Positions 578 through 5,974 of a stretch of 5,974 nucleotides of DNA are shown in pieces. Position numbers and translations under genes: made by a program. The first letter of the stretch is position 1; every line of letters begins with the position of its first letter. The notes beneath the pieces are model-generated. The model had not been told where the DNA came from, ran no database searches, and saw only the letters and a program-made list of their open reading frames with translations. The DNA comes from Desulfobacteraceae bacterium (GTDB lineage: Bacteria; Desulfobacterota; Desulfobacteria; Desulfobacterales; Desulfosalsimonadaceae), in assembly GCA_003551985.1 (NCBI GenBank), contig PUOB01000354.1:1-5974 (forward strand), in the 5' to 3' direction.

Positions 578-593
578 TGGCATATTAATTGCT
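578..593 (+). promoter_or_regulatory. Sigma-54 (-24/-12) promoter of the mutase operon
   Basis: TGGCATATTAATTGCT matches the RpoN consensus TGGCACG-N4-TTGCW at every core position except bases 6 and 7, with exact spacing between the GG (579-580) and GC (591-592) elements. Counting the final C of the GC as -12 puts transcription start near 604. This leaves a leader of about 64 nt before the ATG at 668. Transcription would need an ATP-dependent enhancer-binding activator, consistent with the dyads found upstream. Confidence 0.75.
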
Positions 594-667: not shown

Positions 668-1078
668 ATGGGTCAGGAGCAGAAAATTCGGGTCCTGGTG
701 GCAAAACCCGGGCTGGATGGGCACGAACGGGGCGCCCATGTTGTGGCGTACGGATTGCGGGACGCCGGTTTCGAAGTCATATATACTGGGCTTCGCCAGA
801 CCACGGCGCAGATTGTCAGCACCGCGATCCAGGAGGATGTCCACGTTATCGGGCTGTCCATTTTGTCCGGGGCGCATCTATCTCTGGCCGGGAAAGTCAT
901 GGAAGGCTTACGGGCTCAGGGGGCCGACGATATCATGGTCATCGTCGGGGGGATCATTCCGCCGTCGGACATCGATGGCTTGAAGGCGCTCGGGGTGAGC
1001 GGCGTATTTACCGCCGGTACCCCGGTGCCGGAAATAACGGCGTTTATCGAATCCGCTGTCGCCGCTGCCGAAACTTGA
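668..1078 (+). CDS. Acyl-CoA mutase small subunit, cobalamin-binding domain protein (methylmalonyl-CoA mutase family)
   Basis: This 136-residue stand-alone B12-binding subunit should carry adenosylcobalamin for the large subunit encoded next. The visible fold signature is complete. It has DGHERG at 17-22, where His19 is the expected lower axial cobalt ligand in the base-off/His-on D-x-H-x-x-G motif. S-I-L at 64-66 is followed by SGAH. A GG pair lies at 94-95 before IIPP, and TAGTP at 115-119 lies near the end. The length fits a separate C-terminal-domain subunit of about 130-140 residues. The longer frame from 599 would add 23 residues ([10 protein letters not shown] and onward) unlike the family N-terminus, so I start at 668, where [17 protein letters not shown] begins promptly. 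It is the first gene of the sigma-54-driven unit. Its partner is the large subunit, 211 bp downstream. The acyl substrate cannot be told from this domain. Confidence 0.93.
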
Positions 1079-1289: not shown

Positions 1290-3050
1290 ATGGGTGACGA
1301 TGCCAAAGGCAAGACATATACAATCAAGCAGTTGAAAGCGGATTGGGAAGAAAGTGTGCTTAAAAAACGGGTTGACCAATTCGGCATTGAAGAGAGTCCG
1401 ACCCGGTTTTATACACCCGCTGATGTCGAGGACTTCGAATTCACAGAAAACGTCGGGTTTCCCGGCCAATACCCGTTTACCGCCGGTAACAGCCCGTTTG
1501 AATTCTGGCGGGCCTACGCCCGGGATGCCGCAAAGGCCGGTTATCGCCCGGATTGGGGCGGGGCAGGGGGCGTCGGCAAATACGGTGGGTTCGGCACGGC
1601 CGAAGACTACCGGGACTACCTGGTCCGGATGCATGCCATGGGCCGGAAAGGCGGACCCAACATGGCCTTCGACCTGGTGACCCAGTGCGGATACGATTCC
1701 GATGATCCGTTTGCCGAAGGCGAAGTCGGCCGGGTCGGGGTCGCCATCGATACTTTCCGGGATTTTGAAACCATCTACGAACCCTACACCGGCGATCTGG
1801 AAATCGACCGGGTGCCGTCAAATTTTACCATCAACGCGCCGGCGGCCGTTATGATCGCCATGTACTGGGCGCTGGCCGAAAAGCGGGGCATATCGCCCGC
1901 CGTTTTAAGGGGAACCCCCCAGAACGACATTCTAAAGGAATTTGTCGCGCGGGGGACCTATATCTTTCCCCCCGGCCCCTCCATGCGGCTGTTTCGCGAC
2001 ACCTGCATTTTCTGCACACAGCAGATGCCGAAGCTCAACATCAATTCCATGGGCGGCTATCATATCCGGGAAGCCGGGGCGACGCGCATCCAGGATTTGG
2101 CTTTTTCCATGGCCAACGCCGCCGCCTATCTCCAGGCGGGCATCGACGGTGGCATGGCCGTGGATGAATTCGCCCCGAAATTTACGTTCAACGCTTTCGG
2201 CGGTTCAATGGAACTCTACCATGAGATTGCCTTTCAGCGCGCCGCCCGCAGGATATACGCCCGAATGCTCAAGGAGCGTTTTCATGCCATCAATCCGAGG
2301 AGTATGCTGATCCGGCAGCCTATTACCGCGCATATCGGCTGTTCTTCGACAACCCTGCAGCGGCCATTGAACAACCTCCCGCGCGCGGTAGTCGGCGGGA
2401 TCGCCGCCGGCATGTCCGGCGGCATGCCTGGCGTCTTTCCGCCCTTTGACGAGCCCATAGGCCTCGGGCACAGCCAGGAAGCCGTCCAGCTCCAGCTGGA
2501 TGCCACCCGGATACTGATCTATGAAGCCGGGATCGCCGATGTCAACGATCCGTGGGCGGGATCCTATTTCATGGAATCGCTCACCGACGAGATTGAAGCC
2601 CAGGCAACCGCGGAAATGGAGAAAATTGAGGGCATGGGCGGTGCGGTCGCCGCTATCGAGAACGGTTACATGCAGAAGGCGATTGCCGGAAGCGCCTATC
2701 GGAGGCAGCAGGCGATAGAGCGCCAGGATTCTTTTGTCGTCGGGGTCAATTGTTTTAACGGTGACAATGAAATCAATGTTTCGGTCAACCGCGAGGTGGA
2801 AGACACCTATGATCCGGCGCGTATGCAGACGGCCGAGCAGCGGCAGGCGGAAAAGCTCGCGGCGCATAAGCAAAACCGGGACAGTAATACGGTTTCTTCC
2901 CTGCTTGCGACGCTAAAGACCCGCGCCAAGGATGAATCGATAAATTTGATGCCCGATATCTGCGAGTGCGTGAAAAACGATGTTACCCTTCAGGAGATCT
3001 GCGATGTGCTGCGGGATGTGTTTGGAGAATATCAGCAGGCAAAGTTGTAG
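1290..3050 (+). CDS. Acyl-CoA mutase large (catalytic) subunit, divergent methylmalonyl-CoA mutase family
   Basis: This 586-residue TIM-barrel subunit should catalyse a B12-radical 1,2-rearrangement of an acyl-CoA. Family marks are clear: KYGGFGTAEDY (97-107), MAFDL...GYDSDDP (125-140), GTPQNDILKEF (208-218), RGTYIFPP (221-228), GGYHIREAGAT (255-265), NDPWAGSYFME (419-429). The tail NLMPDICECVKN plus ICDVLRDVFGEY (552-581) is typical of large subunits lacking a fused B12 domain. Tyr98, Gln211, Arg221 and His258 align by eye with Tyr89, Gln197, Arg207 and His244 of Propionibacterium methylmalonyl-CoA mutase. Oddities: the canonical TMYxxRPWTxRQYAG stretch is replaced by about 16 extra residues and a Gly-rich WGGAGGVGKYGG; the usual GGTQSLHTN reads GGMPGVFPP (377-385); a CIFC pair sits at 239-242. 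The substrate may therefore not be methylmalonyl-CoA. The start has AAAGAGG (1278-1284) five bases ahead. The B12 domain comes from the gene at 668; MeaB follows. Confidence 0.93.
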   Translation: MGDDAKGKTYTIKQLKADWEESVLKKRVDQFGIEESPTRFYTPADVEDFEFTENVGFPGQYPFTAGNSPFEFWRAYARDAAKAGYRPDWGGAGGVGKYGGFGTAEDYRDYLVRMHAMGRKGGPNMAFDLVTQCGYDSDDPFAEGEVGRVGVAIDTFRDFETIYEPYTGDLEIDRVPSNFTINAPAAVMIAMYWALAEKRGISPAVLRGTPQNDILKEFVARGTYIFPPGPSMRLFRDTCIFCTQQMPKLNINSMGGYHIREAGATRIQDLAFSMANAAAYLQAGIDGGMAVDEFAPKFTFNAFGGSMELYHEIAFQRAARRIYARMLKERFHAINPRSMLIRQPITAHIGCSSTTLQRPLNNLPRAVVGGIAAGMSGGMPGVFPPFDEPIGLGHSQEAVQLQLDATRILIYEAGIADVNDPWAGSYFMESLTDEIEAQATAEMEKIEGMGGAVAAIENGYMQKAIAGSAYRRQQAIERQDSFVVGVNCFNGDNEINVSVNREVEDTYDPARMQTAEQRQAEKLAAHKQNRDSNTVSSLLATLKTRAKDESINLMPDICECVKNDVTLQEICDVLRDVFGEYQQAKL

Positions 3051-3061
3051 GGGGAATGTTA

Positions 3062-3240
3062 TGGGGGCGTTCCTACGCGGGAGCGTAGGAACGATGGGCG
3101 AGGGACAATGGAGGGAGCGTTCCTACGCGGGAGCGTAGGAACGATGGACGAAGATGGAAGGAGCGTAGGAACGATGGACAGAACGATGGGCTAAGATGGA
3201 GGGAGCGCAGGAACGATGGACGAGTAGGAGCGATGGAGTG
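3062..3240. repeat. REP-like array with two perfect 11-bp hairpins
   Basis: A unit close to GAGCGTAGGAACGATGG recurs across the gap. Complete copies lie at 3081-3097, 3131-3147 and 3161-3177. A partial copy is at 3181-3189, a variant GAGCGCAGGAACGATGG at 3204-3220, and a decayed GTAGGAGCGATGG at 3224-3236. The first two are preceded by the inverted arm, giving identical hairpins: CGTTCCTACGC (3068-3078 and 3118-3128), loop GGGA, then GCGTAGGAACG (3083-3093 and 3133-3143). Linkers rich in GATGGA separate the units. No coding frame is evident. This is a REP-type intergenic repeat that has spread by local duplication. Within one transcript the two strong hairpins could protect upstream mRNA ends or reduce meaB expression relative to the mutase. 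Confidence 0.85.
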
Positions 3241-3281
3241 ACCTGGGTATCGAGCCTAATTAAAGCAATAGGGAGTTCAGT

Positions 3282-4295
3282 GTGGACAATGCATGGGAAA
3301 AACTGATTGGCGGGGTTAAGAACGGGGATGTTCGGTCCATGGCACGTCTGATTTCCCGCGTGGAAAACCGCGTAAACGGCTGGCAGGCAGCCATGTCCGA
3401 TATTTACCGAATGACCGGCAATGCACGGATATTGGGCATCACCGGTTCACCGGGGGCTGGCAAGAGCACGCTGACAGGCGCCGTTACCGAAGAACTCGTT
3501 GCCAGGGGCCACACCGTGGGCATCATTGCAGTCGATCCGTCCAGTCCGTTTTCCGGGGGCGCGCTTCTGGGAGACCGTCTCCGCATGCAGCGCCTTTTCA
3601 CCCTTGACGCTGTTTATATCCGGTCCATGGCCACGCGCGGGATGCTGGGCGGCCTTTGCCGGGCCGCCCGGGACGCGGTGCGCATCATGGATGCGTTCGG
3701 CAAGGATATCATCTTAATCGAGACGGTGGGCGTCGGCCAGGATGAGATCGAAATTGTCCGTGCCGCCGACCGGATCATGGTGGTGCTGACCCCGGGGCAG
3801 GGCGACGGTGTTCAGGCCATCAAGGCGGGCATCATGGAGATCGCCGATATATACGTGGTCAACAAGTCGGACCTGCCCGGCGCCGACGAGGTGGTAGCCG
3901 ATATCCGGGCCATGCTCTCCCTGTCCGAATGGCAAAACGATCACGTCCCCCCGGTCGTGCAGACGGCTGCCGGCCTGAAGCAGGGCATCGGCGAACTCAT
4001 CGATGCCGCACTCTCACCCGAGCCTGCCTTGTTGGATCATCCTGCGAACAAAGCCGCCCGCATGCGCGAGGAGATCATCGCCATGGTGGAGCGGGAGGTG
4101 TTTGAGAAGGTTCGGGGCGCCCTGGAATCCGATGCGTCGCTTGATCGGGCGGTTTCTAAGGTGATGGAGAACAACGCCGATCCCTATACCATTGTCCCGG
4201 AGCTGCTGGAAAACACGGATATCCAAATTAAGACAACTGAGGAGCATTGCAATAATGACACCCCCTCCAGGAAAAATGGCCGAAAGACTGGCTGA
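3282..4295 (+). CDS. meaB: MeaB-type GTPase, chaperone of the B12 acyl-CoA mutase
   Basis: This 337-residue SIMIBI-class P-loop GTPase (MeaB/ArgK/MMAA family) gates adenosylcobalamin loading and protects or rescues its partner mutase. Visible motifs are a Walker A GSPGAGKS (55-62), VDPSSPFSGGALLGDR (84-99), the ETVGVGQDE switch region (147-155), and the guanine-specificity NKSD (194-197). An N-terminal helical region (1-48) and a C-terminal helical region (about 255 onward) match the family's dimerisation parts. Translation starts at GTG (3282), with AGGGAG (3270-3275) six bases upstream, so expression may be set lower than an ATG start would give. Placement directly after the mutase large subunit is the usual arrangement and identifies the client. 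The end is slightly odd: after ADPYTIVPELLEN the last 20 or so residues are hydrophilic (KTTEEHCNNDTPSRKNGRKTG region) and overlap the start of the next gene. Function is well supported; the client's substrate is not. Confidence 0.95.
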   Translation: MDNAWEKLIGGVKNGDVRSMARLISRVENRVNGWQAAMSDIYRMTGNARILGITGSPGAGKSTLTGAVTEELVARGHTVGIIAVDPSSPFSGGALLGDRLRMQRLFTLDAVYIRSMATRGMLGGLCRAARDAVRIMDAFGKDIILIETVGVGQDEIEIVRAADRIMVVLTPGQGDGVQAIKAGIMEIADIYVVNKSDLPGADEVVADIRAMLSLSEWQNDHVPPVVQTAAGLKQGIGELIDAALSPEPALLDHPANKAARMREEIIAMVEREVFEKVRGALESDASLDRAVSKVMENNADPYTIVPELLENTDIQIKTTEEHCNNDTPSRKNGRKTG

Positions 4296-5595
4296 ATTTG
4301 CCGTAAAAACGCACAGCCGGGATATCCCCCCGGAGATTTATGACCATGCCAAAGTCGCCTTCATGGACTGGCTGGGCGTGACATACGGGGGAATGGATGA
4401 TCCCCTGGTGGAAAAAGTTGCCGCGTATGCCGCCGAGATGGGCGGCCATCCGCAGGCGACGGTCCTCGGGCGGAACCTGAAAACTTCCGTCGACCAGGCG
4501 GCGCTGATCAACGGCACGGCCTCCCATGTCCTGGACTACGACGACACCCTGGTCTCCTTTTTTGGCCATCCTTCCGTGACGCTTTATCCGTCGCTTCTGG
4601 CCCTTTCGGAATGGCGTGGTAAAAGCGGGCGCGATTTGCTGTGCGCCTACTTGGTGGGGCTCCAGGTCGGCGGCACCATCGGGGTGAGTGCTGGGCTCGA
4701 TCATTACATGGCAGGCTGGCATGCCACATCCACCATCGGGCATTTGGCATCGGCGGCCGGGTGCGCAAAGCTCCTCGACCTGGACGAGACACAGTTTGTT
4801 TATGCCCTGGGCATTGCCGCTACCCAGTCGTCCGGGCTGAAGCGTGTTTTCGGAACCATGTGCAAGCCGTTTCACGCGGGAAGGGCCTCCCAGGCCGGCC
4901 TGATGGCCGCACTGCTGGCGGAGAAAGGCTTTAGCGGGCCGGCGGACATCCTGGAGGGCCCCCAGGGCTTTTTCGAGCTGTTCAAGGGCGGCGTAAACGA
5001 AGATGTCCTTTCGCTTCTGGGGCTGGGCTGGGATGTGGTCAATATCTCCCAGAAATACCATGCCTCGTGCCATGCCACCCACTCCCCCTTGGAAGCGGCA
5101 TTGTCGGTTATTAACACGGAAAATATCGCCCTTGAAGATATCGCCGGTATCACGGTCTCCTCCTCCAAAATGGCCATGGACGCCGCCGGGCAGAAATCCC
5201 CGGAAAACGGGCTTCAGGGCAAGTTTTCCATACCCTTTTGCGTGGCCAATGCGTTGGTAACCGGCGAAACCGGCACCCGGGCATTTATTGATGAAAATAT
5301 CCATAACCCCGGCATCCGGGCGCTGATGAAGAAAATAACCGTGTCGCTTGACCCGGGAAAAGTGGGCCTGGAAGCCCACGTGGACATCGAAACCACCGAC
5401 GGCCGGACGCATTGGGGATTCTCCGATATCCTGCAGCAGATTCCGCCGCTGGCGGTCAAACAGGACCGCGTGGCCAAAAAATTCCTTGATCTTTGCGGCG
5501 GCGCATTAACGCCGGAGAAAGCCGAAAAAATCCGGCAAAAAATTGAAAACCTGGAAAATATCCAAAATATGGGCGCTTTCATGGAAAGGGGATAG
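4255..5595 (+). CDS. MmgE/PrpD-family protein (2-methylcitrate dehydratase / cis-aconitate decarboxylase-like)
   Basis: This 446-residue protein has the MmgE/PrpD two-domain layout: a large helical domain (about 8-265 plus the C-terminal end) and a smaller alpha/beta lid domain (about 266-400). Recognisable motifs are DWLGVTYGG (38-46), NGTASHVLDYDDT (86-98), GHPS (104-107), GWHATSTIG (154-162), KPFHAGRASQAG (204-215), QKYHASC (266-272) and GKFSIPF (322-328). Asp94, His105, His156 and Lys204 sit about where cis-aconitate decarboxylase has its catalytic Asp, His, His and Lys, so the protein looks enzymatically competent. Family members dehydrate, decarboxylate or epimerise di- and tricarboxylates, so the reaction is uncertain. 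The ATG at 4255 is preferred because TGAGGAG (4238-4244) precedes it. A second Met at residue 8 (4276) is an alternative. It overlaps meaB by 41 bp, implying translational coupling and a shared pathway. No signal peptide or membrane segment is seen. Confidence 0.9.
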   Translation: MTPPPGKMAERLAEFAVKTHSRDIPPEIYDHAKVAFMDWLGVTYGGMDDPLVEKVAAYAAEMGGHPQATVLGRNLKTSVDQAALINGTASHVLDYDDTLVSFFGHPSVTLYPSLLALSEWRGKSGRDLLCAYLVGLQVGGTIGVSAGLDHYMAGWHATSTIGHLASAAGCAKLLDLDETQFVYALGIAATQSSGLKRVFGTMCKPFHAGRASQAGLMAALLAEKGFSGPADILEGPQGFFELFKGGVNEDVLSLLGLGWDVVNISQKYHASCHATHSPLEAALSVINTENIALEDIAGITVSSSKMAMDAAGQKSPENGLQGKFSIPFCVANALVTGETGTRAFIDENIHNPGIRALMKKITVSLDPGKVGLEAHVDIETTDGRTHWGFSDILQQIPPLAVKQDRVAKKFLDLCGGALTPEKAEKIRQKIENLENIQNMGAFMERG

Positions 5596-5622
5596 AGGAC
5601 CTAACTGGACTGGTGTTCGAGT

Positions 5623-5670
5623 GTCCATCCTGTCCAATGTCCACATCGTCCACCCTGTCCACAACGTCCA
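5623..5670. repeat. GTCCA minisatellite (six copies, mostly 9-bp period)
   Basis: GTCCA occurs at 5623, 5632, 5639, 5648, 5657 and 5666, with four-base spacers tcct, catc, ccct and caac and one shortened spacer, at. A single inverted copy, TGGAC (5606-5610), lies upstream. The 9-bp period would read in frame on either strand, but no gene with a ribosome binding site fits, so I regard it as noncoding. It occupies the gap between the MmgE/PrpD gene and the activase. No good terminator is seen here, so the two genes may share a transcript. Confidence 0.75.
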
Positions 5671-5759
5671 ACAGCCCCAGCCCCTTTTCAGCCCCAAGGG
5701 TGGGAGCAATGAAAAAAACAGCCAAAGACAAATCATTAAAGCCGCCCCACAGGAAAAAG

Positions 5760-5974
5760 ATGAATAACCAGCCGCTCATCACCGAGATTCAGAAATTTGC
5801 CGTAAACGACGGGCCGGGGTTCCGGACCAGCGTTTTTGTAAAGGGATGCCCCATGCGATGCGCCTGGTGCCACAACCCTGAAACCATTCGCCCGGAGCTC
5901 GACATTTACTGGAAACGGCGTCTTTGCGTGCAGTGCGGGCAATGCATGGATGCCTGCCCCGGCGACGCCATCGA
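5760..5974 (+). CDS. Glycyl-radical-enzyme activase, radical SAM (3'-truncated by the window)
   Basis: The first 71 residues of a radical-SAM activating enzyme are visible. Such enzymes use a [4Fe-4S] cluster and S-adenosylmethionine to place a glycyl radical on a partner enzyme. DGPGFRTSVFVKGCPMRC (17-34) carries the start of the cluster motif C30-x3-C34-x2-C37, followed by HNPE. A second motif, C56-x2-C59-x2-C62-x3-C66-P, is the ferredoxin-like insertion found in activases of benzylsuccinate synthase, hydroxyphenylacetate decarboxylase and related enzymes but not in the short pyruvate formate-lyase activase. The opening PLITEIQKF resembles the BssD-type N-terminus as I remember it, which favours a fumarate-adding partner, but this is not proven. 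Start choice: AGGA (5751-5754) lies five bases before the ATG at 5760. An in-frame ATG at 5709 would add 17 lysine-rich residues. The partner enzyme is expected nearby, probably beyond the right edge. Confidence 0.92.
   Translation, partial: MNNQPLITEIQKFAVNDGPGFRTSVFVKGCPMRCAWCHNPETIRPELDIYWKRRLCVQCGQCMDACPGDAI

Follow-up and report, generated by a model that had tools for sequence, protein, structure and literature searches.

Background

The first enzyme of anaerobic alkane degradation by fumarate addition, a route that removes oil from reservoirs and polluted sediments, has been solved structurally, and it is undecided whether its product is epimerised before the B12-dependent rearrangement (PMC12358834, PMC4561516; these two papers, PMC3653055 and PMC6776118 are cited here from excerpts). 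If such a step exists, which enzyme carries it out? This question is raised by a stretch of 5,974 nucleotides (positions 1 to 5,974 of contig PUOB01000354.1, assembly GCA_003551985.1, from a Desulfobacteraceae bacterium), hereafter called the window, in which a gene of the MmgE/PrpD family stands among genes for a B12-dependent acyl-CoA mutase and for the activase of a glycyl radical enzyme. We interpret the window as the front of an ass operon, and its MmgE/PrpD protein (below, PrpD) as the C2 epimerase of free (1-methylalkyl)succinate, acting before CoA ligation; we give this interpretation a probability of about 0.65.

The stereochemical problem arises from strain HxN1, which grows on hexane and forms both (2R,1'R)- and (2S,1'R)-(1-methylpentyl)succinate, i.e. 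two C2 epimers, while alkylbenzene-degrading strains form a single stereoisomer (PMC4561516). The reported reading of the two epimers is a hypothesis, according to which the synthase is selective and a later epimerisation prepares the rearrangement (PMC4561516, PMC3653055).

Results and discussion

Collinear relatives and the type of glycyl radical enzyme

The window carries five genes, all on the forward strand: mcmS, mcmL, meaB, the MmgE/PrpD gene and a truncated gene of a glycyl-radical activase; no gene of a glycyl radical enzyme was found inside it. In genome G170 (locus L123), which is closely related and has a long contig, the same five genes occur in the same order and are followed by genes for AssA, MoxR and a vWA protein, the identity to the window being 81% for McmS, 84% for McmL, 70% for MeaB, 77% for PrpD and 76% (71 residues) for the activase. 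The order mutS-mutL-MeaB-PrpD-activase is also found in Desulfatibacillum alkenivorans DSM 16219 (L014), where one small gene and then AssA follow, and in Smithella sp. SCADC (L021), where AssA comes next; the contig of L001, the nearest row to the window's PrpD in our tree, stops after its PrpD gene. Over 66-70 residues, the activase fragment of the window shares 71-78% identity with the eight best activases from the cluster of the relatives, five of which adjoin AssA in their own locus. We infer that AssA would be the next gene downstream on the window's own contig.

For the glycyl radical enzyme of locus L002, the score is 1239 bits to MasD of the solved (1-methylalkyl)succinate synthase vs 458 bits to BssA/TutD. 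Proteins of the AssA group have the active-site motif QAC[ML]SP, without a tandem Cys pair, in 18 of 18 cases, and the RVAGYS motif in 15, the remaining three being cut by locus ends. On these scores and motifs, we rejected the idea that the enzyme of the relatives is a BssA, a pyruvate formate-lyase or a choline lyase. Because G170 shares the five genes in order, followed by AssA, and because the L002 enzyme is MasD-like, we read the window, from sequence comparison, as the front half of an ass operon, from a Desulfobacterales-like bacterium that would degrade n-alkanes anaerobically by adding them to fumarate. A preliminary description of this DNA had suggested such a route and named what would speak against it, namely a glycyl radical enzyme of another class or a neighbourhood lacking conservation; among the relatives, the adjacent enzyme is of the alkylsuccinate synthase type and the gene set recurs as a conserved neighbourhood, and the suggestion is supported. 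Among the further pathway genes that it sought, a CoA ligase gene is found downstream in the relatives, together with a crotonase-family gene.

Operons of this kind are known. The ass clusters of D. alkenivorans (L014) and Desulfoglaeba alkanexedens unite the mutase subunits, a MeaB-type gene (named LAO/AO transport system in the latter), MmgE/PrpD, activase and AssA; in cluster 1 of D. alkanexedens MmgE/PrpD is placed among the ancillary genes, and cluster 2 has functionally homologous genes (PMC7180275, Marks 2020). The window differs from these clusters in representing the 5' half only, and the published MmgE/PrpD is listed as ancillary without a function. The new part is thus the role proposed here for MmgE/PrpD, as judged from a search of earlier reports limited to open-licence literature.

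Linkage of the PrpD clade to AssA across genomes

AssA, the window's PrpD and the window's mutase served as queries against 291 genomes from the class to which D. alkenivorans belongs, with up to 3, 5 and 4 candidates, respectively, scored in each genome; AssA was accepted at E<=1e-120 and at least 59% identity to the query, and membership in the PrpD clade at E<=1e-60 and at least 49% identity. AssA is present in 24 of the 291 genomes and the PrpD clade in 23 of these 24 at E<=1e-60, the 24th (G148) having a PrpD fragment where a contig ends, some 3 kb away from AssA. Both genes lie on one contig in 17 of the 23 genomes, in 13 of them within 3.6 kb. With 23/24 counted, Fisher's test of the co-occurrence gives p = 5.6e-29, under an assumption of independent genomes, yet the genomes are related. 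The count omits 16 weaker PrpD rows (<=38% identity) and four mutase rows (44-52%), by which the numbers are unaffected.

Among the 267 genomes without AssA at the cut, the PrpD clade was found in four (G081, G291, G099 and G093). G093 encodes a divergent AssA-like enzyme 8 kb from PrpD (738 bits to MasD, 398 to BssA), and a contig of G291 (C437) carries a clade PrpD (53% identity), a clade mutase and, about 9 kb from PrpD, a glycyl radical enzyme 33% identical to AssA, which may be a further X-succinate synthase or have no relation to these enzymes. Neither the PrpD clade nor the mutase clade was found in the ten genomes that have only BssA-like enzymes, a term that here denotes 34-38% identity to the AssA query, with one enzyme (that of G202) compared with solved structures (1005 bits to BssA vs 525 to MasD). 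The occurrence of the PrpD clade with AssA and its absence from BssA-only genomes fit the chemistry of the pathway.

Family, tree and active site of the MmgE/PrpD protein

The best solved relative of the window's PrpD, both by sequence and by structure, is iminodisuccinate epimerase (PDB 2hp0, 2hp3; 27% identity). In our tree, a branch with 100/100 support separates 46 rows (27 of ass type 1, 6 of type 2, 5 of type 3 and 8 others, with labels assigned by hand), and 46 of 46 cluster sequences, including the window, retain His102 and Tyr148, which correspond to His99 and Tyr145 of iminodisuccinate epimerase and to the proposed acid-base residues of the two-base epimerases of the family. A carboxylate/enolate-binding set (H88, D91, H153, K201, K264) is also conserved in the clade. 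In (S)-(R)-methylsuccinate isomerase, the binding residues are His88, Glu91, His152, Lys202 and Lys266, and the catalytic ones His102 and Tyr148 (PMC12290011); the sets were matched by position and via iminodisuccinate epimerase, the isomerase sequence being outside the alignment.

The window's PrpD thus resembles methylsuccinate isomerase in fold family, in the His/Lys set with His102 and Tyr148, and in the 2-alkylsuccinate substrate proposed here, but has Asp91 instead of Glu91. The isomerase is encoded in itaconate/methylsuccinate clusters, alongside a CoA transferase, and acts on a C5 acid, whereas the clade of the window stands beside AssA and a B12 mutase and would act on a longer substrate. 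Iminodisuccinate epimerase likewise has paired His/Tyr bases and epimerises a C2-substituted succinate, but its substrate is N-substituted and its context is not that of hydrocarbons. The preliminary description singled out MmgE/PrpD as the notable piece, rightly in our view, and offered decarboxylation, dehydration or epimerisation as its reaction; the evidence favours the last, and an MmgE/PrpD gene of an ass cluster, a piece regarded there as novel, had already been listed in print without a function (PMC7180275).

Database annotation of such proteins is often 2-methylcitrate dehydratase, and a dehydratase that oxidises the propionyl-CoA arising from alkane breakdown (PMC4561516) would suit the family name, but we find this explanation hardly credible. 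The NCBIfam PrpD models score the window's protein far below their cut-offs (TIGR02330, 38.6 vs 458 bits; NF006943, 48.2 vs 575; NF042438, 46.2 vs 950), and on this ground that identity was rejected; moreover, 2-methylcitrate dehydratases give the lowest Z within the family, and the methylcitrate synthase family was not seen among the recurrent cluster genes scanned.

A decarboxylase, e.g. of the alkylmalonyl stage, comes to mind as the pathway needs a decarboxylation and cis-aconitate decarboxylases are among the next relatives of PrpD. The second base argues against it: Tyr148 is retained in the window's PrpD, and mouse cis-aconitate decarboxylase (7br9) has no Tyr at the position of Tyr145 of iminodisuccinate epimerase (PMC7347537). 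Besides, a different gene is an alternative candidate for this reaction, namely the crotonase-family gene seen in 21 of 43 PrpD loci, and we consider a decarboxylase role of PrpD most improbable.

The crotonase-family gene lies beside the CoA ligase gene in ass operons (L014:19584-20453, L002:15080-15877, L021:19593-20405). It matches methylmalonyl-CoA decarboxylase weakly (170 bits vs a cut-off of 257 in L014, 110 bits to 1ef8 in L002), and ordinary enoyl-CoA hydratases match it equally well or better. The Glu typical of the hydratase motif is missing from its protein. It is a candidate alkylmalonyl-CoA decarboxylase of ass operons.

Substrate residues of the mutase

Tyr98 and Arg221 of McmL align with the Tyr and Arg of methylmalonyl-CoA mutase (1req) that, as Tyr89 and Arg207, bind the substrate carboxylate. 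Within the mutase group (n=36), Tyr98 is conserved in 31 sequences (3 gaps, 2 Val) and Arg221 in 33 (2 gaps, 1 Cys). Although 2-hydroxyisobutyryl-CoA mutase (4r3u) is the best match of McmL, it has Ile and Gln where McmL has Tyr and Arg, and that type was rejected. The residues of McmL fit a carboxylate-bearing substrate, as the pathway requires.

Survey of PrpD neighbourhoods

An alignment of 38 PrpD sequences was used to scan public genome contigs, which yielded 80 loci; neighbourhoods were read for 43 of them (at least 45% identity), and the other 37 contributed PrpD sequences only to the alignment and tree (35 sequences). Families were named from one or a few scanned members per gene group, and the gene counts are lower bounds, as several loci stop at contig ends: mutL 32, MeaB 26, mutS 23, CoA ligase 23, activase 22, crotonase-family 21 and AssA 17. 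At least one of mutL, mutS and MeaB is present in 34 of the 43 loci, and AssA or activase in 25.

A second layout, in six loci (L019, L020, L027, L030, L033, L038), comprises the mutase large subunit, a radical SAM protein of about 640 aa with a PDZ domain, and PrpD; all of them but L027 also have the mutase small subunit, and all but L020 the crotonase. The radical SAM/PDZ protein is contained in the type-3 clusters. A search for AssA in the genome of L019 gave no match, and the genome of L020 (G008, a 2.8-Mb bin) has nine AssA-type genes of nearly full length (61-64% identity), besides fragments.

Points against the proposed epimerase

Several observations weigh against the epimerase proposed here or its tie to alkanes. 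When AssA fragments below E<=1e-120 were sought in eight genomes, one genome (G094) proved to have a fragment at a contig end and no PrpD, so that a stricter count of the linkage is 24/25. Mutase-PrpD loci also occur in G007, a genome without an AssA match; therefore, the module may serve other sources of alkylsuccinates. Furthermore, in four of the ten genomes with BssA-like enzymes only, a distant PrpD (about 38-39% identity to the window's) lies 11-14 kb from the BssA-like gene, which set back the idea that MmgE/PrpD is confined to alkane clusters. These four distant proteins, three of them near copies of each other, form their own branch in the tree (100/100 support), and all keep His102 and Tyr148. 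The clusters in question (L111-L116) are bss/bbs-like; L112 shares activases, MoxR and vWA genes with the ass type, whereas in L111, unlike in the window, the separate-branch PrpD is embedded in a beta-oxidation-like set (CoA transferase, acyl-CoA dehydrogenase, ETF, thiolase).

The published record also holds counter-arguments. The two HxN1 epimers could be explained by a non-selective synthase as well as by an epimerase yet unknown, and the excerpt of PMC12358834 describes the mas cluster of HxN1 with seven genes, with no PrpD among those named. Were the synthase to make both epimers by itself, no epimerase step would be needed and PrpD would play another role in the pathway. Relaxed selectivity was judged unlikely (PMC4561516), BSS is highly stereoselective, and the tight AssA-PrpD linkage and the retained two-base active site would stay unexplained, which makes this alternative distinctly unlikely in our opinion.

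Epimerisation has been placed after the formation of the CoA thioester, and n-alkylsuccinate side products have been described (PMC4561516), hence PrpD could be an epimerase of a different intermediate: the CoA ester of alkylsuccinate, alkylmalonate, or n-alkylsuccinate side products of fumarate regeneration. The active-site evidence applies equally to these substrates, and in some loci the mutase and PrpD genes have no AssA gene close by. The family is known, however, to act on free 1,4-dicarboxylates, and the isomerase of C. necator rejects methylsuccinyl-CoA (PMC12290011); a different intermediate is, in our assessment, an unlikely but serious alternative.

Finally, the epimerisation of C2 could fall to a CaiB-family alpha-methylacyl-CoA racemase with its gene elsewhere, leaving another role to PrpD. 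Such a racemase was sought in the literature, and CaiB-family genes are present in 7 of 7 ass genomes checked. The expected racemase was reported missing from n-alkane-degrading Smithella draft genomes (PMC6776118), and the PrpD gene is present in both of our Smithella loci (L011, L021), the genomes of which also have CaiB-family genes. Within the PrpD neighbourhoods, there is a single recurrent CaiB group, which four of the 43 loci have but no locus among the 25 with AssA or activase, genes confined to single loci having been scanned in part only; a CaiB racemase in this role appears very unlikely.

Proposed order of reactions

Gene content, synteny, AssA linkage and active-site residues are observed here; an epimerase step, with PrpD as its enzyme and the free diacid as its substrate, is proposed. 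AssA would join the alkane to fumarate and so form (1-methylalkyl)succinate in a single C2 configuration. PrpD would then use two bases, His102 and Tyr148, to deprotonate and reprotonate C2 of the free diacid, the enolate being held by the conserved His and Lys residues, and so produce the C2 epimer. The CoA ligase encoded downstream in the relatives would activate the correct epimer, and McmLS, maintained by MeaB, would rearrange the CoA ester to alkylmalonyl-CoA, to be decarboxylated and to enter beta-oxidation. More broadly, we suspect that the ass-linked clade comprises C2 epimerases of free (1-methylalkyl)succinate and that sister branches serve products of other X-succinate synthases, a tentative generalization whose chances we put at just short of even.

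Other features of the window

Coordinates are collected in Table 1. Family scans confirmed all parts that the preliminary description had recognized on one strand (a two-subunit B12 acyl-CoA mutase, MeaB, MmgE/PrpD and the activase); the start that it gave for the cluster, 1290, holds for mcmL but not for the small subunit, which is encoded upstream. The overlap of MmgE/PrpD with meaB, also described there, amounts to 41 bp with the most plausible start of PrpD, ATG 4255, which is preferred because the resulting 446 aa equal the length of a 100%-identical database protein (P0121). The reading frame of the activase runs off the end of the window, with about 71 N-terminal residues present. A tRNA scan of the window found none, and an Rfam scan of it found nothing at gathering score.

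Table 1. Genes and promoter element of the window
Feature	Position	Strand	Evidence
sigma-54 type -24/-12 promoter element, TGGCAT-N5-TTGCT	578..593	+	exact match, 75 bp before mcmS
mcmS, B12-binding small subunit of acyl-CoA mutase	668..1078	+	TIGR00640 165 bits, PF02310
mcmL, acyl-CoA mutase large subunit	1290..3050	+	TIGR00641 456 bits; PF01642
meaB, GTPase chaperone of B12 mutase	3282..4295	+	TIGR00750 299 bits, PF03308
MmgE/PrpD family protein, 446 aa	4255..5595	+	PF03972 243 bits, PF19305 93 bits
assD-type glycyl-radical enzyme activase, 5' part	5760..5974	+	TIGR02494 96 bits on fragment

The sigma-54 site, of which 0.01 are expected by chance within the window, has a similar counterpart upstream of mutS in all 13 relatives that share the window's mutS-mutL-PrpD layout, nine of them matching strictly and four more loosely, the expected rate being 0.8% per upstream region in single-base shuffles; none was found before the mutS genes of other layouts (0/13), where layouts had been set by hand from gene order after the matches had been seen. 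Genes of a sigma-54-activator group are present in 17 of the 43 PrpD loci. Between mcmL and meaB, at 3063-3223, the palindromic repeat unit CGTTCCTACGCGGGAGCGTAGGAACG occurs in two near-identical copies and in degraded ones; it resembles a small mobile or REP-like element.

Conclusions

With a named gene and a predicted active site, the question of epimerisation becomes testable with one purified protein. If the proposal is true, the order of the pathway becomes AssA, epimerase, CoA ligase, mutase, the frequent annotation as 2-methylcitrate dehydratase would be corrected, and the MmgE/PrpD gene would provide a second marker, beside assA, for alkane degraders in metagenomes.

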